DNA of 64,000 bases from Allostella sp. ATCC 35155 (GTDB lineage Bacteria > Pseudomonadota > Alphaproteobacteria > ATCC43930 > Allostellaceae): contig AP019701.1 in the NCBI GenBank assembly GCA_006738865.1, forward strand, positions 3,716,001 through 3,780,000. Direction: 5' to 3'. Position 1 is the first letter of the stretch, and every line of letters begins with the position of its first letter. The position numbers and the translations under genes are program-made. Below, one piece after another: positions 6,062 to 53,939 of the stretch. The notes beneath the pieces are model-generated. The model was not told the DNA's origin and made no database searches. It saw only the letters and a list, made by a program, of their open reading frames with translations.

Positions 6062-6855
6062 TCGCCCAGCTCTCCGATCCGCACGTCCGGCCCGAGGGCG
6101 TGCTCTACCAGGGCGTGGCCGACAGCAACCGGATGCTGGAGGCGGCGATCGACCGGCTGCATGGCCTCGACCCGCGGCCGGACGTCTTGGTCCTGACCGG
6201 CGATCTCGTCGACGAGGGGCTGCCGGAGGAGTATGCAGCGGCGCGGGCGATCCTCGACCGGCTGGAGATTCCGCTGCGCCTGCTGCCGGGCAACCATGAC
6301 GAGCGGCGGGCCTTCCGCGACGCCTTCGCCGACCGCCACTACTATCTGCCGGCCACGGGGCCGCTGCATTGGGCCGATGGCGGGCACGGGCCGGTACGGG
6401 TGGTCGCGCTCGACGTCACCGTGCCGGGACTGCATCACGGGCTGGTCGACGCGGCCGGCGCCCGCTGGCTCGACTCCACCCTCGCCGAAGAGCCCGGGCG
6501 ACCGACGCTGCTGCTGCTGCACCAGCCGCCGTTCACCTGCGGCATTCCCTACATGGACCTCTATCGCTGCCACGGCGAAGAGCGGCTGGCCGCCGTGCTG
6601 CGGCGGCATCCGCAGGTCGAGCGGGTCGCCTGCGGCCATGTCCACCGCACGATGCAGCTGCGCTTCGCCGGCACCCTGCTCGTCACCGCGCCCAGCACCG
6701 CGACGCAGATCGCGCTGCGCCTGCGCCCCGATGCCGAGCCGGCCTCCCACCTCGATCCGCCGGGCTTCCTGCTGCACCACTGGCTGCCCGGAACCGGGCT
6801 CGTCACCCATGTCTGCCCGGTCGCAGAGGGCCCCGGCCCCTTCCCCTTCGCCTGA
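6055..6855 (+). CDS. Class III cyclic-nucleotide phosphodiesterase (CpdA/GpdQ-type metallophosphoesterase)
   Basis: A 266-residue calcineurin-like phosphoesterase. The binuclear metal motifs are in order: SDPHV at the N-terminus, LTGDLVD, LPGNHDER, an LLLLHQPPF histidine, and CGHVHR near residue 200. This arrangement is that of the class III cNMP phosphodiesterases such as CpdA and Rv0805, and of the glycerophosphodiesterase GpdQ. Because an adenylate cyclase and a Crp-type receptor lie within 4 kb, hydrolysis of cAMP is an attractive role, but the family is promiscuous and other phosphodiesters are possible. The start overlaps the end of a possible upstream small frame. Confidence 0.85.
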   Translation: MLIAQLSDPHVRPEGVLYQGVADSNRMLEAAIDRLHGLDPRPDVLVLTGDLVDEGLPEEYAAARAILDRLEIPLRLLPGNHDERRAFRDAFADRHYYLPATGPLHWADGGHGPVRVVALDVTVPGLHHGLVDAAGARWLDSTLAEEPGRPTLLLLHQPPFTCGIPYMDLYRCHGEERLAAVLRRHPQVERVACGHVHRTMQLRFAGTLLVTAPSTATQIALRLRPDAEPASHLDPPGFLLHHWLPGTGLVTHVCPVAEGPGPFPFA

Positions 6856-41935: not shown

Positions 41936-42619
41936 TCAACCATCCGTGCGCAGGGCCAGCCGGCGCCGATCCCATCGCTCGACCAGGATCCGGCTGATCA
42001 GCGCCCAGGCCGCGCCCAGGCACCACCCGGCCAGAACGTCGCTCGGCCAGTGGACGCCGAGATAGACCCGGCTGATGCCGACCAGCCCGGTCAGGGCGAT
42101 CCCCGAGCCGAGGACGAACCGCGCCAGCGCGGGGCGCGGCTGGACCCGCGCGACGAGGCCCGCGAGCGTGAGGTAGGCCACCGCCGACAGCATGGCGTGG
42201 CCGCTCGGGAAGCTCGCCGTATGGATGTCCGCGAGATGGGCGACGAGATCCGGCCGCGGCCGGTCGAAGACCAGCTTGAGGCCCGCCGACAAGGCCGTTC
42301 CGCCGAGGACCGACAGCGCGAGCAGCAGGACGGACGCGTGCTGACGGAGCAGCCGGAGGTAGATCGCGGCCGCCAGCACGAGCAGCGTCAGGACGGCGTG
42401 GCTGCCCAGCGCCGTCACGTCGCGGAAGAAGATCTCGAGCCAGAACGGGCCGATGGGGTCGGCACGATCGGCCGGCTCGCGAAGCGCCAGCAGCACGCCC
42501 TCGTCGAACGGCCGCAGCCGGCCGCCATCATGGGCGACCAGCAGCATGAGCAGGCCCGCCGCCGCGATGCAGACCGGGATCACGACGCGGTGCGGATGGA
42601 AGGAGAGGCGGCGGGACAT
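41936..42619 (-). CDS. PAP2-family phosphatase
   Basis: A 227-residue membrane protein with about six helices and the three PAP2 phosphatase motifs: KLVFDRPRPD, SFPSGHAM and RVYLGVHWPSDVLAG, with Lys, Arg and the two catalytic His present. It probably dephosphorylates a lipid such as undecaprenyl diphosphate or phosphatidic acid at the periplasmic face. It is divergent from the lipid kinase that starts 118 bases away, which could form a functional pair. Confidence 0.93.
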   Translation of the reverse strand: MSRRLSFHPHRVVIPVCIAAAGLLMLLVAHDGGRLRPFDEGVLLALREPADRADPIGPFWLEIFFRDVTALGSHAVLTLLVLAAAIYLRLLRQHASVLLLALSVLGGTALSAGLKLVFDRPRPDLVAHLADIHTASFPSGHAMLSAVAYLTLAGLVARVQPRPALARFVLGSGIALTGLVGISRVYLGVHWPSDVLAGWCLGAAWALISRILVERWDRRRLALRTDG

Positions 42620-42737
42620 CGCTGCGGTCCGTTCGAGGGGGAGGATGGAACCTGGAGAGCCTTCCGGCGATTGTAGCGCGTCCCCCGCCCGATCCCCGGC
42701 CGGGGTCGAACGCAAGCCCGGAGGCCGAAGTTCCGCG

Positions 42738-43661
42738 ATGACCGCCGCCCACCCCCAACGCCGCAAGGCGCTGCTGATCGTGAACGGTCGCGCGCGCAAC
42801 GGCGCCGAAGCGCTGGGCGAGCCGCGCACGATCCTCCAGAGCGCCGGCATCGAGCTCGTCGACTGCCACTGCGGCGACGGCGGCAGCGTCGCCGAGGCGG
42901 TGCGCCAGCGGGCCGGCGAGGGTTTCACGGAGGTCATCGTCGGCGGCGGCGACGGGACGCTCAACGCCGCCGCCCCGGGCCTCGTGGCGACCGGGCTGCC
43001 GCTCGGCATCCTGCCGCTCGGCACCGCCAACGACCTCGCCCGCTCGCTCGACATTCCGCTCGATCCGGCGACGGCGGCCGGCGTGATCGCCACCGGCCTG
43101 CGGCGGCGCATCGACCTCGGCCAGGTCAACGACCGCTACTATTTCAACGTCGCCAGCATCGGCTTCAGCGCGGTGCTCGCGCGCGAGCTGTCGGCCGAAT
43201 CGAAACGCCGCTGGGGCGTCCTCGGCTACGCGATCACCGCCTTCCGCATCCTGCGGCGCATGCGCCCCTTCACCGCCAGCATCCAGCACGACACCGGCCA
43301 GATCCGCTCGCGCACCATCCAGATCTCCGTCGGCAACGGGCGAAACTATGGCGGCGGCATGACGGTCGACGCCGACGCCCGGCCGGACGACGGCATGCTC
43401 GATGTCTACAGCCTGGAGATCGACCGCTGGTGGCGGCTGATCGCGCTCGCCCCCGCCCTCCGGCGCGGCACGCACGGCGCCTGGAGCGACGTACGGACGC
43501 TGCGGACGCGCGAATGCACCCTCGTCACGCGCCGGCCGATGCGGGTCAACGCCGACGGCGAGATCGTCACCAGGACCCCGGCGCGATTCCAGGTGATGCC
43601 GGGGGCGATCGAAGTCTTCGCGCCACCCGCTCAACCCTCGGGCGGGTCGAGCGCGGCATAG
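42738..43661 (+). CDS. Diacylglycerol-kinase-family lipid kinase (YegS-like)
   Basis: A 307-residue soluble kinase with the DAGKc domain: LIVNGRARNG near the N-terminus, VGGGDGTLN as the nucleotide loop, and PLGTANDLARSL. The C-terminal beta-sandwich has NGRNYGGGM and DDGMLDVYSLE, as in YegS/BmrU. It phosphorylates a membrane lipid. The last 31 bases overlap the convergent fkbM-type gene. Confidence 0.92.
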   Translation: MTAAHPQRRKALLIVNGRARNGAEALGEPRTILQSAGIELVDCHCGDGGSVAEAVRQRAGEGFTEVIVGGGDGTLNAAAPGLVATGLPLGILPLGTANDLARSLDIPLDPATAAGVIATGLRRRIDLGQVNDRYYFNVASIGFSAVLARELSAESKRRWGVLGYAITAFRILRRMRPFTASIQHDTGQIRSRTIQISVGNGRNYGGGMTVDADARPDDGMLDVYSLEIDRWWRLIALAPALRRGTHGAWSDVRTLRTRECTLVTRRPMRVNADGEIVTRTPARFQVMPGAIEVFAPPAQPSGGSSAA

Positions 43662-44401
43662 ACGTCGCCGGAATTGGCCTGCTGCGGCAGGCCGGCGATC
43701 CAGACGGCCATTTCCGAGTGATCGCACCAGCGGTCCGCGACCAGTTGCTGGCTCTCCCCGAGGGCGGCCCGGAAGCGGTAGGGGCCGAGGGCGGCGACGC
43801 GGTCGAGCGCCGCCAGCGCCACCGTGCGCTGAATGGTCGTGAACTCGAACGACAGGGCCGGCACGGGCTGCGACAGGCCGGCCAGCGCGTCCGCCTCGAA
43901 GCCCTCGACGTCGATCTTGAGGAAGGCCGGCTGCCCGTGGCGAGCGACCAGCAGGTCCAGCGTCGTCAGCGGCACCGCGACGGTGTCGTCCCAGCGCTGG
44001 CCCTCCCAGCCCGCGGCGCCGTCGGCCGCGCGGATGAAATCGTCGGATGCGGTAGAGACGGTCGGGTTGGCGCGGTTGATGCGCAGCGTCACCTGCCCGG
44101 GCGCACTCCCGACGGCCGCCGCCTCGATCGCCACCTGCCGGTCGCGGCCATAGAGGAGGCGGAGCAGCCGGACCAGCGCCGGCTGGGGCTCGACCGCGAC
44201 GACGCGGCAGCCGAGCCGGCGGAACGACGCGACCCGGTCGCCGACATGGCTGCCGACGTCGAAGACGAGATCGCCAGGCCGCACGAAGCGGGCGTGCAGC
44301 CGGTCCATCGCCTGCCGCCGCTCGCGTCCGCGATAATAGATCGAGAGCGACCGCAGGATGCCCCGCGCCGCCCGCACCCGCCCCGCGAGGGCCCCGATCA
44401 T
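43631..44401 (-). CDS. FkbM-family methyltransferase
   Basis: A 256-residue SAM-dependent O-methyltransferase. VFDVGSHVGDRVASFRRLG is motif I, VVAVEPQPALVRLL the next, and FLKIDVEGFEADALAGL the FkbM signature. FkbM enzymes often methylate sugars in glycans or natural products. It overlaps the OpgH stop by four bases and is the last gene of the seven-gene operon, so it may modify the glycan or the pathway product. The 3' end overlaps a convergent gene by 31 bases. Confidence 0.92.
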   Translation of the reverse strand: MIGALAGRVRAARGILRSLSIYYRGRERRQAMDRLHARFVRPGDLVFDVGSHVGDRVASFRRLGCRVVAVEPQPALVRLLRLLYGRDRQVAIEAAAVGSAPGQVTLRINRANPTVSTASDDFIRAADGAAGWEGQRWDDTVAVPLTTLDLLVARHGQPAFLKIDVEGFEADALAGLSQPVPALSFEFTTIQRTVALAALDRVAALGPYRFRAALGESQQLVADRWCDHSEMAVWIAGLPQQANSGDVYAALDPPEG

Positions 44402-46143
44402 CCGGGCGCGCCCGGCGGCAGCGCCGCCGGCCCGGCAGTGAGGAGGTCGGGCGGCGGCGCCGTCTCCTCCGGCAGGCGGCAGAGACCGACCCGTGCCGCC
44501 CAGCGGCCGAGTTCCGGCAGGGATGTCACGACGGCGAAGGGCGCGGCCAGCAACAGGCCCGCGAGGCCAAGCTGGGCCCAGGCCCAGGCCTCCCAGGAGG
44601 TGGACAGGAACGCCGCCGTCCCCGCCGCCCCGGCCAGGGTCTGGCGCCAGAGCGTGCGCAGCGCGACCGGCCACGGCACCGCATGATCATCGCGCACCTG
44701 CCCCGTCCAGCCGGCCCGGCGGCGGAACGGCAGGGCCAGCATGTAGAGCGTGTGCGCCAGCGTCGTGATCGGGAAGAGCAGCAGCGAGAAGAGGAACTCG
44801 GCCGCAAAGCCGGCGAGGAACCGCGGCGCACCGCCGAAGCTGCGGCGCTGGTCGGCGTCGGCGAGCACGTCGACGGCGCTCGCGAACTTGGGTGCGAAGA
44901 CGAAGAGGATGACCACGGCGAGCAGCACCGGCCCCACCACCGGATCGAAGATCGCCGCCCCCTCCGGCAGGGTCGCCGTCCGCCAGGCGAGCAGCGCCAG
45001 CATGGCGGTCCAGGCCGGCGCGCCGAAGAACATCAGCATCGCCAGCCAGAGGTGGAAGCGGCTGCCGGGCAGCAGCCCCGGCAGCCCGACCAGCCGGACA
45101 TACTGCATGTTGCCGAGGCACCAGCGCAGGTCGCGGCGGACGAACTCGATGAGGGTCGGCGGATTGGCCTCCCAGCTGCCGCCCTCCTCCGGCAGCACCC
45201 GCACCTCCCAGCCGGCCCGGCGCATCAGGGCCGCCTCGATCTGGTCGTGGCTGAGCACGTCGCCGCCGAAGGGCGGACGGCCGGACAGGCGCGGGATGTG
45301 GCAGTGCCGGGTGAACGGCGCCACGCGGATGATGGCGTTGTGCCCCCAGTAGGGCCCGCAATCGGCCTGCCAAGCCGAGGCGCCGAGCGTGTAGGAGCGC
45401 ATCCCGAGGCGCATTCCGAACTGGAACAGCCGCGCGAACAGGCTGGCGCTCGGCATTCCCGTGACCAGGGTCTGGACGATGCCGAAGCGGGGATTCTCCT
45501 CCATGATCCGCACGAGACGGAGGATCGCGTCCGGCGCCATGACACTGTCGGTGTCGAGCGTGACCATGAAGTCGTACCCGTCGCCCCAGCGCAGGCAGAA
45601 ATCGCGGATGTTGCCGGCCTTGAAGCCTTCGTTCGCGGTCCGCCGGCGATAGGTGACCGGCAGACGGGCCGCGAGCGCGGCGGCCTCTGCCTCCTCCGCC
45701 TGCGCCACCTCCGGCCGGTCGGTGTCGCTGAGGACGAAGGCATGGAAATGCCCGCCCCAGCCGGCCCGCAGGAGGCCCGACATGAGGCGGTCGAGGTTGC
45801 GGAACGTGCCGGCCGGATCCTCGTTGCGGACGCACACCAGCAGCGCGGTGCGCCCGGCAAGCGGGCGCTGCGGATCGGGCCGGGCGAAGGGGGCGACGGC
45901 GGCCACGGCGTCGGCGGTCCGCAGGCGCAGCCAGAGGAAGATGGCGGAGTTCCAGAACCCGATCACGCCCCAGGGCGCCGTCAGGGCGAACAGCAGGACG
46001 ATGGCGAGGTCCGCCCCGTCGATGCCGCCGGGCCGCAGCGCCAGGGCCATCAGGCCGATGAGCAGCAGTGTCGTCGCGGCGGCAGCCGCGGCGTAGAGCC
46101 GGCGTCGGCGGGTGATCACAAAGCCCGTTTCGGTGCTTGCCAT
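44398..46143 (-). CDS. opgH: Glucans biosynthesis glucosyltransferase (OpgH/MdoH-like, short form)
   Basis: A 581-residue inner-membrane GT2 glycosyltransferase. Two N-terminal helices, a cytoplasmic catalytic domain with TLDTDSVM, DCGPYWGHNAIIR and RRDLRWCLGN (the Q/RxxRW-type site), and about four C-terminal helices are visible. OpgH makes the beta-glucan backbone of osmoregulated periplasmic glucans. Enterobacterial OpgH is about 850 residues; this shorter form resembles those of Rhodobacter-like bacteria. The usual partner opgG is absent here. The gene is packed three bases after a methyltransferase gene. Confidence 0.9.
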   Translation of the reverse strand: MASTETGFVITRRRRLYAAAAAATTLLLIGLMALALRPGGIDGADLAIVLLFALTAPWGVIGFWNSAIFLWLRLRTADAVAAVAPFARPDPQRPLAGRTALLVCVRNEDPAGTFRNLDRLMSGLLRAGWGGHFHAFVLSDTDRPEVAQAEEAEAAALAARLPVTYRRRTANEGFKAGNIRDFCLRWGDGYDFMVTLDTDSVMAPDAILRLVRIMEENPRFGIVQTLVTGMPSASLFARLFQFGMRLGMRSYTLGASAWQADCGPYWGHNAIIRVAPFTRHCHIPRLSGRPPFGGDVLSHDQIEAALMRRAGWEVRVLPEEGGSWEANPPTLIEFVRRDLRWCLGNMQYVRLVGLPGLLPGSRFHLWLAMLMFFGAPAWTAMLALLAWRTATLPEGAAIFDPVVGPVLLAVVILFVFAPKFASAVDVLADADQRRSFGGAPRFLAGFAAEFLFSLLLFPITTLAHTLYMLALPFRRRAGWTGQVRDDHAVPWPVALRTLWRQTLAGAAGTAAFLSTSWEAWAWAQLGLAGLLLAAPFAVVTSLPELGRWAARVGLCRLPEETAPPPDLLTAGPAALPPGAPG

Positions 46144-46146
46144 CGC

Positions 46147-46947
46147 TCAGTTCCTTCGCCCGGCCGGCATGGCCAGGATGTCCCGATGGCCGACGCGCAG
46201 CGTCAGCCGGCCCTCCGCCGCCTGGCGGCAGCGCCGCTCGGCCCATGCCGCGATCGCCGGGGCATCGCCCGGCGACTGCTCGCGCGCCGCCGCCGCCGCG
46301 CCCGCGATCATGGCGGCCAGCATCGCCCCCTCGCCCGCACCCACCCGCCAGTCGCTCCGCGCGGTCTCGACCCGCCAGCCGCGACGGCGAAAGGCCGACG
46401 CGACCGCGGCCGGCGCAGCCGGACCCAGCGCCGGGCCCGGCCCCAACCCCTTCGGCCGGCGCTGGTGGCGCGCGAACAGCCCTTCGACGAGGGCGTCGTC
46501 CGGGTCGTCCGGCCACCAGCCGCCACGACCGTCGACGACCAGCGGCGCATAGAGCGGCAGGCGGCGCCGGGCCAGTGTCGCCGCCAGGTCCTCGATCCAT
46601 GGGCCGGACGCCAGGTCGAGCAATGCGAAGGCCGTCACCGCGTCGGCGCGGCGCGGCAGGAACCGGGCGCAGCCGACACCAAGATCGGCGGCGATGCCGC
46701 GTGTACCGGGTGCCGCGGCGAGCGCGACCCGCAGCAGTTCGGGATCGCCTTCGACGAAGACCCAGCGCGCAGACGGTCCGACCACCGGGCCCAGCGCCCG
46801 CCGCGACGCCCCCGTGCCGGCGCCGAGATCGACGATGGTGCCGCCCGCGACCAGCAGCCGGGCAAAGCGGCGGGCGAGGGCCGGCGACCGGGCGGCGGCA
46901 TCGAACGGCGCACGCAGCGCGAGCCAGTCGGCCGAAAAGCCGCTCAT
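46147..46947 (-). CDS. Class I SAM-dependent methyltransferase
   Basis: A 266-residue methyltransferase with motif I VDLGAGTGASRRAL (residues about 38-51) and a later FALLDLASGPWIEDL in the motif IV region. The C-terminus is Ala-rich and helical. It overlaps the GT4 gene by four bases, and its own stop is three bases from the opgH start. The substrate is unknown; by position it acts on the product of the RibD/PTPS-like enzymes or on a glycan. Confidence 0.82.
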   Translation of the reverse strand: MSGFSADWLALRAPFDAAARSPALARRFARLLVAGGTIVDLGAGTGASRRALGPVVGPSARWVFVEGDPELLRVALAAAPGTRGIAADLGVGCARFLPRRADAVTAFALLDLASGPWIEDLAATLARRRLPLYAPLVVDGRGGWWPDDPDDALVEGLFARHQRRPKGLGPGPALGPAAPAAVASAFRRRGWRVETARSDWRVGAGEGAMLAAMIAGAAAAAREQSPGDAPAIAAWAERRCRQAAEGRLTLRVGHRDILAMPAGRRN

Positions 46948-47990
46948 CGGGCCAACCGCGCGACCGCCGCGGCGAACTGCCGGGCGGCCGTCGGCCAGTC
47001 CGGCAGCGCCGCCCCGGCTGCCGCGGCCCCCGCGGCCAGCCGCCCGCGCAGCGCCGCGTCGCCGATGGCGCGGCGGAGTGCGGCCGCCAGGGCCGGCCCG
47101 TCCCCCGGCGGCACCAGCAGGCCCGCCGCGGCCGGCACCGTATCGGCCACCGCACCGCCGGCGGCGGCGACGATCGGCAATCCGGCGCGCAGCGCCTCCG
47201 ACAGCGCCATGCCGTAGCCTTCGTAGAGCGCCGGGTGGACGAAGAGGTCGGCCTGCAGCCGGGCGCCCGCGAGGGCGGCCTCGTCGACTTCTCCGGCGAA
47301 GCCGATGCGGCCGGCGAGCCCGGCTGCCGCGACCCTGGCCGCGAGTTCGGCCGTCAGCGCCGGGTCGCGGTCGGTCGCGCCGATGCAGGTCAGCTGCCAG
47401 TCGAGATCGGCCATGCCGGCCAGTGCATCGACCAGCAGCAAGTGGCCCTTGCGCGGCACCAGTGCGGCGACCGACAGCAGGCGCACGGGGCCGGGCGCAC
47501 GGGCGGGACGCGGCCCCGGGATCGGGTCGACGCCCGGCGCAACAGCCACCACCCGGTCGGCCGAAACCCCGTACGCGTCGCACAGGGTTCGCCGGGTGAA
47601 GGCGCTGGTGACGATGATGCCGGCGACCCGGGCGAGCGCCGCGCGCTCGCCCGCGCGCAACCGGTCGGCCAGGTCGGGCGCCAGCCCCGTCTCCTCGGCC
47701 AGCGGATGATGGACGAGCGCGATCATGCCTTCGGCCGCCGCACCGCGGTCGAGCCCGAAGGCCGGCAGGGCCAGGCCGTCGACGACGAGCGGGGCGCCGC
47801 GCGCAGCGGCGCGCACCGCGGCCGCGGCGTCGCGGGCAGCGTGGTCCGCCAGCGGATAGGTGCCCGCCATCTCGTGCACCGCGACGTCCCAGCCCAGCGC
47901 CCGCAGGCCCTCGACGATGCGCCGGTCGTAGATGGTGCCGCCGGTGCGCCGGTCGAGCGGGCCCGGCAGCGCCAGGTCGAACCGGTTCAC
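46944..47990 (-). CDS. Glycosyltransferase family 4 protein
   Basis: A 348-residue GT-B glycosyltransferase starting at GTG 47990, which overlaps the PTPS-like stop (GTGA); the open frame extends further but only as antisense-like sequence. DRRTGGTIYDRRIVEGLRAL near the N-terminus is the acceptor side; VSADRVVAVAPGVDP and LFVHPALYEGYGMALSEAL carry the GT4 nucleotide-sugar-binding ExxxxxxxE pattern. It moves a sugar onto an acceptor that may be a pterin-like compound, given its neighbours. Confidence 0.88.
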   Translation of the reverse strand: MNRFDLALPGPLDRRTGGTIYDRRIVEGLRALGWDVAVHEMAGTYPLADHAARDAAAAVRAAARGAPLVVDGLALPAFGLDRGAAAEGMIALVHHPLAEETGLAPDLADRLRAGERAALARVAGIIVTSAFTRRTLCDAYGVSADRVVAVAPGVDPIPGPRPARAPGPVRLLSVAALVPRKGHLLLVDALAGMADLDWQLTCIGATDRDPALTAELAARVAAAGLAGRIGFAGEVDEAALAGARLQADLFVHPALYEGYGMALSEALRAGLPIVAAAGGAVADTVPAAAGLLVPPGDGPALAAALRRAIGDAALRGRLAAGAAAAGAALPDWPTAARQFAAAVARLAR

Positions 47991-48400
47991 CGGGTTGCCG
48001 GAATCGGCCCTTCGAAGCTGGCCCAGGCCCGCGGCGACTCGCGCAGCGTCACCTTGATGCCGGTCAGGCGGTCCGCCGTGTCGGGGCCGAGATCCCCGGC
48101 GGCCGTCCGCAGCGCCAGCCGGCGATGGATTTCCGCCGCCAGGAACTCGGTCGTGGTGTTGATGCCCGCGAAGTCGGACTCGGCGTCGAGGTTGCGGTAG
48201 TCGAAGGCGGCCAGCACCTCGCGCAGCGCGGTCATCGCCCGGCCGATATCGCAAACGACGCCGTTGGCATCGAGGTCGGCACGGCGGAACTCCGCCTCGA
48301 CGGCGTAGGTCGCGCCGTGCAGCGCCTGGGCCGGCCCGAAAAGTTCGCCGCGGAAGCTGTGGGCGATCATGAAATGGTCGCAGACGGTGACGGCATACAT
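47987..48400 (-). CDS. PTPS/QueD-like protein with degenerate active site
   Basis: A 137-residue protein with the T-fold of 6-pyruvoyl-tetrahydropterin/6-carboxy-tetrahydropterin synthases. Compared with PTPS, the first zinc His is kept (His14 in MIAHSF) and the second probably (His28), but the HGHNY motif is HGATY, so the third zinc ligand is Ala30. The catalytic Cys position (FGKC) is FGPA, and the catalytic His of DHKNLD is Tyr68 (DYRNLD). The C-terminal Glu (Glu121) that anchors the pterin ring remains. It may thus bind a pterin-like ligand without the usual reaction. It overlaps the GT4 gene by four bases. Confidence 0.82.
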   Translation of the reverse strand: MYAVTVCDHFMIAHSFRGELFGPAQALHGATYAVEAEFRRADLDANGVVCDIGRAMTALREVLAAFDYRNLDAESDFAGINTTTEFLAAEIHRRLALRTAAGDLGPDTADRLTGIKVTLRESPRAWASFEGPIPATR

Positions 48401-48429
48401 GGCGCGGGCGGACCTTCCGTCGGGTGGCT

Positions 48430-49428
48430 TCAGGGGTAGCGGACGGCGTGACAGAGCGTGCCGTCCCGGTTGGTGGAAAGTTGCTGCATGGTCTGCGGCA
48501 GATCCGCGAAGTGGCTCTCGCCGGAGATCAGCCGGTCGTACGCAGGATCGCGCAGCAGCTCCAGCGCGAGTTCCAGCCGCCGGCGATGGTTCCAGCGCCG
48601 GCGCTGCGCCGGCGCCACCTGGCCTACCTGCGAGGAGCGGATCGTCAGGCGGCGGGAATGGAAGGCGCCGCCCAGCGGCAGCACGACGGGGCTGGAGCCG
48701 AACCAGCTCAGCACCGTGACCGACGCTTCCTCGCCGGCCAGTTCCAGCGCGGAGACGAGGCCGTCGGGCGCGCCCGTCGCCTCGAACACGGCATCCTGGT
48801 CGGCCGGCGCCGCATCCGGGCCGGCGAAGCGGATACCGAGCGCGGCGGCCAGCGCGGCCTTGCCGGGATCGCGGTCGACGAGGGTGACCACCGTGCCCGG
48901 CACATAAGCGGCCAGCCGGGCTACCAGCGCGCCAACGACACCGGCGCCGACGACCGCAATGTGCTGGCCGGGCAGGACCGGCGTGTCCCAGAGCGCGTTG
49001 ACCGCCGTCTCCATGTTGGCGGCGAGCACGGCCCGACGCGGCGGCAGGCCGTCGGGCAGCGGCAGCACGGCGACGGCCGGCACGACGAAGCGATCCTGGT
49101 GCGGGTGGAGGCAGAAGACGAGGCGGCCGGCGAGCCCGGACGGGCCCGCCTCGACCCGGCCGACGGCGGCATAGCCGTACTTGACGGGATAGGGGAAATC
49201 GCCGGCCTGGAACGGGCAGCGCATCCGCGCCCGCTCGCTGTCGGGCACCCGGCCGAGGAAGACCAGCGCCTCGGTCCCGCGCGAAATTCCGGACCACAGG
49301 GCGGCGACGCGGACCTCGTCGGCCGCCGGCTCCGGCAGCGCCTCCGCGCGGACCTCGCCCCGCCCCTTGCCGACCGTCCAGAAGGCATGCGCCCGCGACG
49401 CGGCGGCGGGGTCAGGTGCGGCGGACAT
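48430..49428 (-). CDS. MDR-superfamily dehydrogenase, BchC-like
   Basis: A 332-residue medium-chain dehydrogenase. SGISRGTEALVFLGRVP near residue 45 is the mark of the BchC-like subgroup, and VVGAGVVGALVARL the Rossmann nucleotide loop. The GHExxG zinc element of alcohol dehydrogenases is absent (YGYAAVG instead), so a catalytic zinc is unlikely. ATG 49428 overlaps the upstream RibD-like stop by 17 bases; ATG 49449 is an alternative. Such proteins oxidise or reduce an alcohol on a ring-bearing substrate. It lies 29 bases before the PTPS-like gene. Confidence 0.85.
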   Translation of the reverse strand: MSAAPDPAAASRAHAFWTVGKGRGEVRAEALPEPAADEVRVAALWSGISRGTEALVFLGRVPDSERARMRCPFQAGDFPYPVKYGYAAVGRVEAGPSGLAGRLVFCLHPHQDRFVVPAVAVLPLPDGLPPRRAVLAANMETAVNALWDTPVLPGQHIAVVGAGVVGALVARLAAYVPGTVVTLVDRDPGKAALAAALGIRFAGPDAAPADQDAVFEATGAPDGLVSALELAGEEASVTVLSWFGSSPVVLPLGGAFHSRRLTIRSSQVGQVAPAQRRRWNHRRRLELALELLRDPAYDRLISGESHFADLPQTMQQLSTNRDGTLCHAVRYP

Positions 49429-50251
49429 CGCAATCGAACAGCACATCATCTCCCATACGGAAGATGCGCGTGGGTGGACGCAGCGCCTCGGAAAGATTCA
49501 CCAGCGGCGGCAGTGCCAGCGCCGGTCGGCCCGAGCCGAGGATCATCGGCGCGACGGTGATCTGCAGCCGGTCGAGACAGCCCTCGGTGAGGAAGCGCGA
49601 GACGGTGACGCCGCCGCCCTCGACGAAGATGCGCCGGCAGCCGCGCCGGGCCAGCGCCTCGACGACCGCGCCATAGTCGATGGTCTCGCCGCGCCGCGGC
49701 ACGCCGACCACGTCGGCGTCGCCGAGCCGCTCGCGGTCGACGCGATCGGCCGCGCAGAGCAGGAGCGTCTCGGTCTCGCCGTCGCGGAACAGGCGATAGC
49801 GGTCGTCGAGCCGGCGCTCGGTGTCGATCACGACCCGCATCGGATGGCGGCCGGGCACCCGCCGCACCGTCAGCCGGGGATCGTCGTGCCGCACGGTTCC
49901 CGCACCGACCACGACGGCGCATGCGAGCGCCCGCATCCGGTGCATGTGGTCGAGATTGTCGGGACAGGTGATGTAGGTCGACTCGCCGGCGTCGGTGGCG
50001 ATGCGTCCGTCGAGGCTCTGGCCGAGATGGGCGAAGACGAGGGGCCGGTTCGGGCAGTCCGCGACGAACGGCCCGTAGAGGTCGAGCATCCAGGCGGCGG
50101 CCGCCTCGCCATGCCACGCCGCATCGCCGGCGGCCGGATCACCAGTTGCGCGGTCGCCCGCGGCACGCCTTTGCAGCAGCGCCCAGGCGGCATCGCCGCC
50201 GGGAAGGCGCGCGTCGGGGACGGCGGTCGTGTCGGTACCGGACGACGGCAA
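49412..50251 (-). CDS. RibD C-terminal (pyrimidine reductase/DHFR-like) domain protein
   Basis: A protein of about 279 residues. After some 60 residues of unclear sequence comes a RibD-C/DHFR fold: VFAHLGQSLDGRIATD, VVVGAGTVRHDDPRLTVR and RIFVEGGGVTVSRFL, then VAPMILGSGRPAL. The N-terminal deaminase domain of true RibD is absent, so it is not a riboflavin-pathway bifunctional enzyme. It should reduce a pyrimidine- or pterin-type carbonyl with NADPH. No ATG gives a sensible start; TTG 50251 is tentative. It is first in the seven-gene operon. Confidence 0.82.
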   Translation of the reverse strand: MPSSGTDTTAVPDARLPGGDAAWALLQRRAAGDRATGDPAAGDAAWHGEAAAAWMLDLYGPFVADCPNRPLVFAHLGQSLDGRIATDAGESTYITCPDNLDHMHRMRALACAVVVGAGTVRHDDPRLTVRRVPGRHPMRVVIDTERRLDDRYRLFRDGETETLLLCAADRVDRERLGDADVVGVPRRGETIDYGAVVEALARRGCRRIFVEGGGVTVSRFLTEGCLDRLQITVAPMILGSGRPALALPPLVNLSEALRPPTRIFRMGDDVLFDCDVRRT

Positions 50252-50358
50252 GGAGATGCGGGGCTCCTGTCGTGCGGACCCGGGCGGGCCCGCCTGAGGC
50301 GAGACTAGCAAATTAGGGCACGGCCCGGCAGTGGCCAGTCCCGCATCGTCCGGATCGC

Positions 50359-51234
50359 TCAGGCGGGCGCCACCCGGTTGCCGACGATCCGGCTGCGCAG
50401 CGCGGTCGAGAGGACGTCGATGAGCGCCACGGCCGCCAGGATGATCAGGATGAGGAAGGACACCGTCTGCCATTCGAGCGTGCGGATCTGCTCGGCCAGA
50501 TGCAGGCCGATGCCGCCGGCGCCGACGATCCCGATGATGGTGGCCGAGCGCGTGTTCGATTCGAAGTAGTAGAGGACCTGGCTCAGCATGACCGGCAGCA
50601 CCTGGGGCAGCAGGCCGAAGCGGATGCGGTGCAGTCCGCCCCCGCCCGCGGCGACGACCCCTTCGCCGGCCTTGCGTTCCGTCGCCTCGATCGCCTCGGA
50701 GAAGAGCTTGCCGAAAGATCCGATGTCGGAGGACATGATCGCAAGCACCCCGGCGAACGGCCCCAACCCGACGACGTTGATCCAGATCAGCGCCCAGATC
50801 AGCGTGTCGACACCGCGGATGGTGTCGAGGAAGCGCCGCGACAGGAAATGCACGACCCGCTGGCCGACGACCGTCCGCGCCGCGATGAAGCCCAGCGGAA
50901 ATGCCAGGATCGCGGCTGTCAGGGTGCCGAGGAAGGCGATCGCGACGGTCTCCGCCAGGGCATGGAGATAGATTTGCAGCCGCTCCGGCGTTCCGAAATC
51001 CGGCGGCACCATGAGGGCGGCGAACGTCCCCAGCTGGCCGAGCCCATGCCAGAGGCGCGCCGGACTGGCATCGATCCACCAGAGGCCGAAGAACAGCAGA
51101 AGGACCGGCCCGCCGATCGCCAGCCCGGTCGCGAGCCGGCGTCCCAGCGGCGCCGCGAACTGCGCGGCGTGCCGCTGCCGCAGCTCGGGCAGGCGGGCCG
51201 CGGCCTCGGCACGGATCGCGGAAGGGCGGTTCAT
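50359..51234 (-). CDS. phnE: Phosphonate ABC transporter permease (second PhnE)
   Basis: A 291-residue permease with about six helices. DTIRGVDTLIWALIWINVVGLGPFAGVLAI, read as adjoining parts, is typical of PhnE, as are FESNTRSATIIGIVGAGGIG (the EAA-linked loop) and the final LIDVLSTALRSRI. It pairs with the other PhnE in the membrane to move phosphonate or phosphite into the cell. Its ATG overlaps the first permease's stop by four bases. The transporter operon ends here. Confidence 0.92.
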   Translation of the reverse strand: MNRPSAIRAEAAARLPELRQRHAAQFAAPLGRRLATGLAIGGPVLLLFFGLWWIDASPARLWHGLGQLGTFAALMVPPDFGTPERLQIYLHALAETVAIAFLGTLTAAILAFPLGFIAARTVVGQRVVHFLSRRFLDTIRGVDTLIWALIWINVVGLGPFAGVLAIMSSDIGSFGKLFSEAIEATERKAGEGVVAAGGGGLHRIRFGLLPQVLPVMLSQVLYYFESNTRSATIIGIVGAGGIGLHLAEQIRTLEWQTVSFLILIILAAVALIDVLSTALRSRIVGNRVAPA

Positions 51235-52127
51235 GCGCGATGCTCCAGGCCGATCAGGCGATGGCGGAGGCGCTCGGTCGCCATGTCGATGACGACGACG
51301 GCCAGGATGATCAGCAGCAGGATCGCCGACACGTCGGCATAGTAGAATTTCCGGATCGCCTCGATCAGATCCTGGCCGATTCCGCCGGCTCCGACGAAGC
51401 CCATGACCGACGCGCCGCGCACGTTGATCTCGAAGCGCAGCAGCGCGTAGCTCGCGAAGTTCGACAGCACCTGGGGCACGACGGCGAAGCGCATCGTGCT
51501 GACCCAGCTCGCGCCCGTCGCCGCGGCACCCTCGACCGGGCCCATGTCGGCGTTCTCGACGACCTCCGCGAAGAGCTTGCCGAGCGCCCCCAGGGTATGG
51601 ATCGACAGTGCCAGCACGCCCGGCAACGGGCCGAGGCCGAAGGCGACGACGAAGATCAGCGCGAATACGATCTCGGGAACCGTGCGGCAGAACTCCAGGA
51701 AGCGCTTGGCGAGGAAGCGGGCGACCGGCCAGCGGCCGACATTGCGGGCGGCGAGGAAGCTGAGCATGAACGCCGCCATCGCCCCGACCACCGTTCCGAG
51801 ATAGGCGATCAGCAGCGTCTCCGCCAGGAGCCGGCCCCAGCGCGCGAGACCCCAGTACCACTCCGCGGGATCGGAGAAGACCGAGTGGCCGGTGGCTGGC
51901 CCGGTATCGAACACGAACAGCCGCGAGACGTAGGCCGGCAGGCGATCGAAGTTGGCGGCGAACTTGGCGAGATCGACCTCGGCGGTGAGCGCCGCGACGA
52001 GCACGGCCAGGACGAGGATGACCCCGCCCAGCAGCGTCTGCCGTCGACGGCCGGCCATCGCCTCGGCATAGGCGCGGCTCAGCGGCGCCAGGGTGGCGTC
52101 GGGCAGGCGGGGGACCGTGCGGCTCAT
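51231..52127 (-). CDS. phnE: Phosphonate ABC transporter permease (first PhnE)
   Basis: A 298-residue permease of the same family as its neighbour, with EFCRTVPEIVFALIFVVAFGLGPLPGVLAL (read as adjoining parts) and FEINVRGASVMGFVGAGGIGQ. ATG 52127 is used; an in-frame ATG at 52136 would add three residues. Two PhnE genes in tandem are common in alphaproteobacteria and imply a heterodimer. Confidence 0.92.
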   Translation of the reverse strand: MSRTVPRLPDATLAPLSRAYAEAMAGRRRQTLLGGVILVLAVLVAALTAEVDLAKFAANFDRLPAYVSRLFVFDTGPATGHSVFSDPAEWYWGLARWGRLLAETLLIAYLGTVVGAMAAFMLSFLAARNVGRWPVARFLAKRFLEFCRTVPEIVFALIFVVAFGLGPLPGVLALSIHTLGALGKLFAEVVENADMGPVEGAAATGASWVSTMRFAVVPQVLSNFASYALLRFEINVRGASVMGFVGAGGIGQDLIEAIRKFYYADVSAILLLIILAVVVIDMATERLRHRLIGLEHRA

Positions 52128-52195
52128 GACAGGCAATCCGGGCAGGCGGCCGGCGGCACGCGGAAGGGGGCGCGTGCCGCCGGTGCTGCCGCTCC

Positions 52196-53107
52196 TCAGC
52201 TGGCGCGGCGCTTGCGCAGCGAGTCGACGAACTGGATCAGCTCAACGACGGGGATGTAATCCTTGTGGGTGGTCGGCTTCCAGACCTGGGCCTGGCCGTC
52301 GGTCAGCTTCTTGAACGCCTCCGGATCCTTCTTCTCGACCGAGAAGTAGGCGTCGCGAACGGCCGCCTTGAGATCGTCCGGCAGGGACGAGAGATAGGCG
52401 ACCGGCGAGTTCACGATCTGGTCGGACTTGAAGATGATGCGGTAGTCGTCGTACTTCGCCATCGACTTGCGCTGCATGCGCATCAGGTTCGACTCTTTCT
52501 CGTCGTTCCACCAGTTGGCGGCAACGTCGACCGTGCCCTGCTGCAGCGCGATGATCGCGTTCTCGTGGCTGCCCGTGTAGACGACCCGGCCGAAGTAGGA
52601 GTCGGGATCGATCTTCATCTTGTCGAGCGCGAAGCGCGGCACGTTGTTGCCCGAGGTCGAGTTCGGGTCGACCAGGCCGAGGTTCTTGCCCTTCAGGTCC
52701 TGGATCGACTGATAGGGGCTGTCCTTCTTCACATAGAAGACCGAGAAGTAGCCGGTCGAGCCGTCGGCGTTCACCTGCATGGCGAACGGCTCGACCTTGG
52801 CGCCCGTGGCATAGGCGCGGGCATAGGAGGCCGGACCGTACTGGGCGATGTGGATGTTGCCCGCCTTCTGGCCCTCGATCACCGCCGCGTAGTCGTTGGC
52901 GATGCGCAGCGTGACCTTCACGCCCAATTCGCGGGCGAGGTACTGGGTGAACTTGGAATAGCGATCGGTCATGCCCGAGGCATTCTCGTCGGGCACGGCC
53001 GCAACGACGAGTTCGGGATACTTCGCCTTCCAGCCCTGCGCCTGGGCGCCGGTCGTGACGAGTGCGAGACCGGCGGCGAAGCCAGCGAGAACGGTGCGCC
53101 TCAGCAT
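52196..53107 (-). CDS. phnD: Phosphonate ABC transporter substrate-binding protein
   Basis: A 303-residue periplasmic protein with a signal peptide (about residues 1-23, ending GAQA). VAAVPDENASGMTDRYSKF, GLVDPNSTSGNNVP and VDVAANWWNDEKESN are PhnD marks, the second of which lines the phosphonate pocket. It lies between the ATPase and the permeases. The ligand may be a phosphonate, phosphite or phosphate ester. Confidence 0.95.
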   Translation of the reverse strand: MLRRTVLAGFAAGLALVTTGAQAQGWKAKYPELVVAAVPDENASGMTDRYSKFTQYLARELGVKVTLRIANDYAAVIEGQKAGNIHIAQYGPASYARAYATGAKVEPFAMQVNADGSTGYFSVFYVKKDSPYQSIQDLKGKNLGLVDPNSTSGNNVPRFALDKMKIDPDSYFGRVVYTGSHENAIIALQQGTVDVAANWWNDEKESNLMRMQRKSMAKYDDYRIIFKSDQIVNSPVAYLSSLPDDLKAAVRDAYFSVEKKDPEAFKKLTDGQAQVWKPTTHKDYIPVVELIQFVDSLRKRRAS

Positions 53108-53141
53108 GGGAAGTCTCCTGGTGGGACGAGGTGAAGTTCGG

Positions 53142-53939
53142 TCAGGCGGTGGCGGGAACGAGGCCGTCGGGCTCGAGGCCGGCCTCGCCGTCGAGCACCT
53201 CGGCGGCTTCGAGACCGTAGAGTTCGCGCGCGACCGACGGGGTCAGCGCCGCCGGCGCGTCGTCGAACACGACCCGCCCGGCGGCGATGCCGACCAGGCG
53301 GTCGCAGTAGCCGCGGGCGAGATCGAGCGAATGCAGGTTGACCAGCACGGTGATGCCGTAGTGGCGGTTGATGCGCTGGATCGCGTCCATGACGACGCGC
53401 GTGTTGCGCGGATCGAGCGAGGCCACCGGCTCGTCGGCGAGGAGGATGCGCGGCTCCTGGACGAGCGCGCGGGCGATGGCGACGCGCTGCTGCTGGCCAC
53501 CCGACAGGCTGTCGGCCCGTTGCGCGGCGATGGCGGCGATGTCGAACTGTTCGAGTGCGGACAGCGCGATGGCCTTGTCCTCGTCCGACCAGAGCCGGAG
53601 CAGGCCGCGGTGCAGCGGCACATGGTTCAGCCGCCCCATCAGGACGTTGGTGAGGACGTCGAGACGGCCGACCAGGTTGAACTGCTGGAAGACCATTGCG
53701 CAGGTCTGGCGCCAGCGCCGCAATTCGGCGCCGCGCAGCGCCGAGACTTCGCGCCCGTCATGGAGGATGCGGCCGGCGCTGGGATCGACGAGGCGATTGA
53801 TCATCCGCAGGAGCGTCGACTTGCCGGCGCCCGAGCGGCCGATCACCCCGACGAACTGCCCGTCCGGCACCTTGATCGAGGCGGCATTCACCGCCCAATG
53901 GTTGCCGAAGCGGCGACCGACCCCCTGCAGTTCGAGCAT
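53142..53939 (-). CDS. phnC: Phosphonate ABC transporter ATPase
   Basis: A 265-residue ATPase with Walker [30 protein letters not shown] (the PhnC-type Q-loop), signature [15 protein letters not shown] and Walker [14 protein letters not shown]. It is the first gene of phnCDEE. No C-P lyase gene (phnG-M) or phosphonatase gene is in the window, so the substrate is used by enzymes encoded elsewhere. Confidence 0.95.

Follow-up and report, generated by a model that had tools for sequence, protein, structure and literature searches.

What a packed block of seven genes, joining ring-type enzymes to sugar and methyl transfer, might make is the question raised by a stretch of 64,000 nucleotides (the window) from Allostella sp. 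ATCC 35155 (contig AP019701.1, positions 3,716,001 to 3,780,000), a host described as a star-shaped soil bacterium and called Stella below. A preliminary description had listed seven tightly packed minus-strand open reading frames in the window and named their families. All seven were found where it placed them, with the gaps and overlaps it gave, and Pfam and NCBIfam models, used with their cut-offs, bear out the names, with cautions for the BchC-like dehydrogenase (a distant match) and the methyltransferase (no curated family). Our results support the view that the first five genes, coding for a RibD_C reductase, a BchC-like dehydrogenase, a PTPS-like protein, a GT4 glycosyltransferase and a methyltransferase, are one conserved functional unit. 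We tentatively propose, with a little less than even confidence, that this core would make a 2-amino-4-oxo-pyrimidine or pterin derivative that is glycosylated, methylated and finished at the membrane.

Conservation of the five-gene core

Loci were gathered from class and phylum genome samples, genome contigs and plasmids, and PTPS-like positives at E 1e-15 were present in 36 of 289 genomes of the class sample and 28 of 398 of the phylum sample. Together these gave 64 loci with the core set, spread over 39 taxonomic groups from the Alpha-, Beta- and Gammaproteobacteria and the Actinobacteria, the groups being an approximate mix of GTDB families and genus or metagenome-assembled genome (MAG) names in which loci of one family are merged. 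Near the PTPS-like gene, a BchC-like gene lies in all 39 groups, GT4 and methyltransferase genes in 38 each and RibD_C in 35, and the order BchC, PTPS, GT4, methyltransferase is kept, strand included, in 57 of the 64 loci. RibD_C is mostly on the strand opposite to the core (40 loci, with 15 on the same strand), which makes the Stella arrangement a variant. Named examples are Streptomyces fungicidicus, Microbacterium, Methylosinus OB3b, Agrobacterium pAt, Thiodictyon, Rhizobium and Neorhizobium, whose cluster has mdoH at the head of the operon; the actinobacterial instances include Streptomyces and Microbacterium plasmids. Two loci from genomes of 1.4-1.6 Mb (L127 and L139) have a minimal set of creatininase, BchC, PTPS, GT4, methyltransferase, RibD and GTP cyclohydrolase II (GCH2) genes. 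The co-occurrence beyond close relatives that the preliminary description proposed to look for is therefore present, since the five-gene core recurs far outside them.

A pathway that extends from streamlined alphaproteobacteria to Streptomyces, and is plasmid-borne too, must yield something useful. The cluster has at its centre an orphan solved structure, PDB 3D7J, and the product of this widespread pathway has no name. In the literature searched, which took in few subscription papers, we found no description of the cluster or its product, nor of its cross-phylum spread, its extended gene set, or the exclusion and the swap described below.

OtnK and OtnC (3-oxo-tetronate kinase and decarboxylase) follow the cassette in about 50 Acetobacteraceae loci (L040-L113), probably as lineage synteny; these genes and the flagellar genes beside the core were rejected as partners on that ground. 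A second methyltransferase gene beside the cassette, recurrent in one family, adjoins RibD or FolE (11597-12454 in L136; 11588-12439 in L124).

The PTPS-like protein and the source of the ring

The PTPS-like protein has a T-fold PTPS domain (PF01242, above cut-off) and scores below the cut-off of the QueD equivalog model (TIGR03367, 40.6 bits against 89.25), and its family profile matches PDB 3d7j (210 bits, E 1e-61) much more strongly than it does true PTPS or QueD. The roles of the zinc, catalytic and pterin-anchor residues of QueD are established, and 38 homologues were aligned with E. coli QueD numbering. The zinc ligand H33 and the catalytic C27 are Ala in all 38, and H71 is lost in all (Tyr in 34, never His); the zinc ligands H16 and H31, the pterin-anchoring Glu E110, and E86 and D54 are kept in every one. 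With the loss of a zinc ligand and of the catalytic Cys and His, the protein is predicted to be incapable of canonical PTPS chemistry, and the kept pterin-anchor residues would favour pterin chemistry. The earlier assignment of the first three genes to the chemistry of a pyrimidine or pterin ring agrees with the retained Glu, with the correction that the PTPS-like protein would not carry out canonical PTPS chemistry. PTPS-like genes of this family also stand alone on Streptomyces plasmids (L181, L182 and L193), beside MEKHLA-domain, cupin and MBL-fold genes and without BchC, GT4 or methyltransferase genes, a second context for the family.

The reductase consists of a RibD_C domain alone (PF01872, 148.8 bits) in 279 amino acids, with no fused deaminase (eubact_ribD, 115.6 bits against a cut-off of 156). 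Among solved structures it is closest to DARoPP reductases (6p8c, 2.6e-24; 2azn, 1.8e-23), which reduce a 2-amino intermediate, and the Stella genome has a separate riboflavin RibD besides. The absence of a GTP cyclohydrolase stated earlier holds for the Stella cluster; genes for GCH2 and GTP cyclohydrolase I lie elsewhere on the chromosome. Such a gene does join the core in other bacteria: GCH2 in 17 of the 39 groups (within 6.5 kb of the PTPS gene, the range used for all partner counts) and GTP cyclohydrolase I at one locus. The cluster GCH2 is usually an extra copy, since the nine genomes examined have two or three GCH2 matches each. In Proteobacteria the GCH2s of the clusters retain both the zinc Cys and Tyr105, and Met at the latter position is found only in Streptomyces. 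A link of this Tyr-to-Met switch to the creatininase gene was considered and rejected, as eight proteobacterial clusters with creatininase keep Tyr and only that of Streptomyces L180 has Met. A Stella RibBA-type protein, with a GCH2 domain that lacks the zinc Cys, adjoins the riboflavin RibD, and there is a separate intact RibA (L189, which is G000 chromosome 2349000-2367000; L188).

The best hint as to the ring comes from one case, genome G234, in which a third, divergent GTP cyclohydrolase I (FolE; PF01227, 6.6e-54) lies between BchC and the second methyltransferase gene, in the slot that RibD_C has in relatives. This enzyme differs from the two housekeeping copies and keeps the zinc Cys/His motif, and no cluster-type RibD_C was found in the genome. 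Since a dedicated GTP cyclohydrolase I replaces RibD_C there, the swap would favour a pterin ring. Two other genomes (G164 and G329) have no RibD_C match besides that of the cluster, so that either riboflavin synthesis relies on it or a RibD is missing.

The BchC-like dehydrogenase is far from the BchC equivalog (TIGR01202, 52.7 bits against a cut-off of 291); judged by eye it has lost the usual catalytic zinc ligands, and at least 90% of 38 homologues share an SGISRGTE-type motif. The methyltransferase scores below the PF13649 cut-off (19.1 bits against 27), and its AlphaFold model (predicted local distance difference test, pLDDT, 96.2) has a fold matching small-molecule class I methyltransferases.

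Membrane-end partners and the nature of the product

Besides GCH2, the genes found near the core are those for a CDP-alcohol phosphatidyltransferase (17 groups), OpgH (14), cytochrome b561 (13), FkbM and creatininase (11 each), and, less commonly, YceI (9), a flippase (8) and a sulfatase-like protein (7). With generous assumed copy numbers, chance would give 0.4-1.3 groups, and GCH2, creatininase, CDP-alcohol transferase, OpgH, FkbM, b561 and YceI are enriched (binomial P 3e-8 to 3e-24). OpgH and FkbM, which the preliminary description took to be either part of the pathway or just co-transcribed, are therefore recurrent partners of the core, and chance co-transcription can be set aside. The Stella OpgH passes two MdoH models (NF003958, 514 bits against 419; NF003962, 463 against 328).

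At none of the 64 loci do both OpgH and the CDP-alcohol transferase lie within 4 kb of the PTPS gene (transferase at 30, OpgH at 16), an exclusion with a group-level Fisher p of 0.003; beyond this range, a distant homologue of OpgH is present at one gammaproteobacterial locus. Across whole genomes, a cluster-type CDP-alcohol transferase is absent from 15 of OpgH type (best E 2e-5, 27-32% identity) and present in three controls at E ~1e-35. This mutual exclusion suggests that the two may be alternative final membrane steps. As the wider set includes the CDP-alcohol transferase, creatininase-family, b561, YceI and flippase proteins, the product is probably linked to the membrane or envelope rather than being just a pterin glycoside in solution.

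The reactions proposed here, like the sugar, the methyl position, the membrane attachment and the redox role, are drawn from the observed conservation, linkage, residue losses and retentions, exclusion and swap. GTP would be opened by GCH2, supplied by a dedicated paralogue in many clusters and by the general pool in Stella, with the creatininase-family protein removing the formyl group where needed. RibD_C would then reduce the intermediate with its 2-amino group retained, and the zinc-free BchC-like dehydrogenase would oxidise a side-chain hydroxyl. The PTPS-like T-fold protein may bind the ring and help in ring closure or side-chain rearrangement, or it may be a scaffold. GT4 would attach a sugar, methylation would fall to the methyltransferase, and completion at the membrane to OpgH in Stella and to the CDP-alcohol phosphatidyltransferase elsewhere. 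FkbM, sulfatase-like and flippase proteins could serve in decoration or transport, and cytochrome b561 and YceI are possible periplasmic redox partners. The earlier suggestion for this locus, a putative glycosylated, methylated pterin- or lumazine-like compound, is supported in part, through the conserved unit, the GTP cyclohydrolase link, the anchor Glu and the FolE swap, with the correction that a membrane- or envelope-linked product is more probable than a plain soluble glycoside. A more specific version, which we regard as distinctly doubtful, has an envelope cofactor as the product: a glycosylated, methylated tetrahydropterin, phospholipid-anchored in the CDP-alcohol transferase type or OpgH-extended in the Stella type, that would be flipped to the periplasm and be redox-active through cytochrome b561 and YceI.

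Several points weigh against the pterin pathway. The FolE swap is a single case in an assembly of 460 contigs, and 15 more loci from genomes of the same family gave no further one. Several core-bearing genomes have no cluster-type RibD_C at all, and in G031 it lies about 62 kb from the cluster. The core homologues belong to broad families whose substrates are not readable from sequence; the fold search with the methyltransferase indicated no substrate, nor did the search of GT4 against solved structures. OpgH and CDP-alcohol transferases differ chemically, and it is the exclusion by itself that suggests alternative modules. Moreover, GCH2 and RibD_C carry out riboflavin chemistry and might just as well provide a lumazine or pyrimidine. 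A lumazine or flavin-type product, in which the two would feed a ribitylamino-pyrimidine into a glycosylated lumazine or flavin analogue and the PTPS-like protein would merely bind the pyrimidine, is in keeping with the additional GCH2 copies beside the core and with a creatininase family that includes the riboflavin-pathway formamidase BrbF (PMC9478397). We nevertheless consider it unlikely: the PTPS-like protein retains the Glu by which a ring with a 2-amino group is recognised, a group that deaminated lumazines do not have, the enzyme in the RibD slot of G234 is a pterin enzyme, and no lumazine or riboflavin synthase was recognised among the recurrent neighbours, among which no direct search for one was made.

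The linkage with membrane-glycan and phospholipid-type enzymes, together with the exclusion between OpgH and the CDP-alcohol transferase, would also fit a cell-envelope glycolipid pathway, in which GT4, the methyltransferase, OpgH or the CDP-alcohol transferase, FkbM, flippase and sulfatase build or alter a glycan or lipid of the membrane and the ring-type enzymes now serve some unrelated chemistry of sugars or polyols. This seems rather unlikely to us, because it leaves the linkage of GCH2, creatininase and FolE unexplained and because the two small genomes L127 and L139 keep the core with creatininase and GCH2 but have no envelope genes nearby. The loss of catalytic residues and the solo genes on Streptomyces plasmids would suit a regulatory or binding complex, with the PTPS-like protein sensing a pterin instead of catalysing a biosynthetic step; its setting, amid four genes for enzymes in 39 groups, makes this very unlikely. 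A phosphonate-related pathway is the most improbable of all. It would rest on the phnC-phnD-phnE1-phnE2 transporter genes that head the Stella block, co-directional and with short gaps, and whose products score above the PhnC, PhnD and PhnE equivalog cut-offs, but phnCDE lies directly upstream of the core solely in Stella and a Stella-like MAG (L035). The transporter was accordingly rejected as part of the pathway and is probably a lineage-specific neighbour outside it; the host family comprises four genomes, and the Stella PTPS-like protein is 90% identical to its S. vacuolata counterpart. We keep the membrane-finished pterin derivative as our working proposal.

The Stella locus and known systems

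The RibD_C and BchC-like genes overlap by 17-38 bases, depending on the BchC-like start chosen, and a 29-base gap leads to the PTPS-like gene. Overlaps of 4 bases join PTPS-like to GT4, GT4 to the methyltransferase and OpgH to FkbM, and 3 bases separate the methyltransferase from OpgH. The co-directional block begins upstream of RibD_C with the phn genes, at gaps of 34 to about 107 bases, so that neighbours throughout the minus-strand block (43631-53939) either overlap slightly or are 3 to about 107 bases apart. A scan between the phn genes and RibD_C gave no terminator-like or sigma-70-like site above shuffle background, a weakly informative result in a GC-rich genome. Just past FkbM, within 41936-43661, lie a convergent YegS/DAG-kinase-like lipid kinase gene (plus strand, 42453-43661) and a PAP2-type phosphatase gene (minus strand), both of which, read by eye, resemble lipid enzymes.

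Table 1. Genes of the minus-strand block, with positions in the window.
Feature	Position	Strand	Match or remark
phnC-phnD-phnE1-phnE2, phosphonate-type ABC transporter	50359..53939	-	PhnC, PhnD, PhnE equivalog models above cut-off
Stand-alone RibD_C reductase, without deaminase domain	49412..50251	-	PF01872 2.3e-43; TTG start assumed, other starts possible
BchC-like medium-chain dehydrogenase	48430..49449 (or start at 49428)	-	TIGR01202 52.7 bits
PTPS-like T-fold protein, SCO6650/3D7J type	47987..48400	-	PF01242 8.3e-23
GT4 glycosyltransferase	46944..47990	-	PF00534 2.5e-23
Class I S-adenosylmethionine methyltransferase, uncurated family	46147..46947	-	PF13649 below cut-off
OpgH/MdoH-type membrane GT2 glucosyltransferase	44398..46143	-	NCBIfam MdoH 514 bits (cut-off 419)
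FkbM-family methyltransferase	43631..44401	-	PF05050 5.9e-16; TIGR01444 above cut-off

The structure of a PTPS-like protein and the Streptomyces GCH2 have already been studied. SCO6650 of Streptomyces coelicolor (PDB 3D7J) is of the same family as the Stella PTPS-like protein, and is said to have no zinc, catalytic triad or PTPS activity and to present a pterin-like site. The S. fungicidicus cluster (CDP-alcohol transferase, BchC-like, PTPS-like, GT4, methyltransferase, flippase, creatininase, GCH2) has a gene order that fits the S. coelicolor locus numbering 6650-6655. In its GCH2, unlike in the proteobacterial cluster enzymes, Met takes the place of Tyr105; this Met was reportedly found by Spoonamore and colleagues in 2006 to make SCO6655 yield a formylated intermediate.

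Cyanopterin is a pterin with a sugar and also a methyl group, and like limipterin it derives from GTP cyclohydrolase I and biopterin-type chemistry. Such bacterial pterin glycosides and the pteridine glycosyltransferases (CtPGT, PMC5683033) share with our proposal a pterin that carries a sugar, whereas the Stella-type cluster has a degenerate PTPS-like protein, a RibD_C reductase and membrane enzymes. The riboflavin formamidases BrbF and ArfB (PMC9478397) have the creatininase fold in common with the cluster proteins, which adjoin GCH2 and RibD_C in some clusters; the Streptomyces cluster creatininase scores higher with the MftE model (141 bits) than with that of ArfB (37 bits), both below cut-off.

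The gene set, the exclusion of OpgH and CDP-alcohol transferase and the RibD/FolE swap could bear on how pterins act in the periplasm. In the PruR/DcpA signalling system of Agrobacterium, a methylated tetrahydropterin, 2'-O-methylmonapterin, is proposed to act in that compartment (PMC13259868). This system has the methylated pterin in common with the pathway proposed here and differs from it in that PruA is a short-chain dehydrogenase/reductase.

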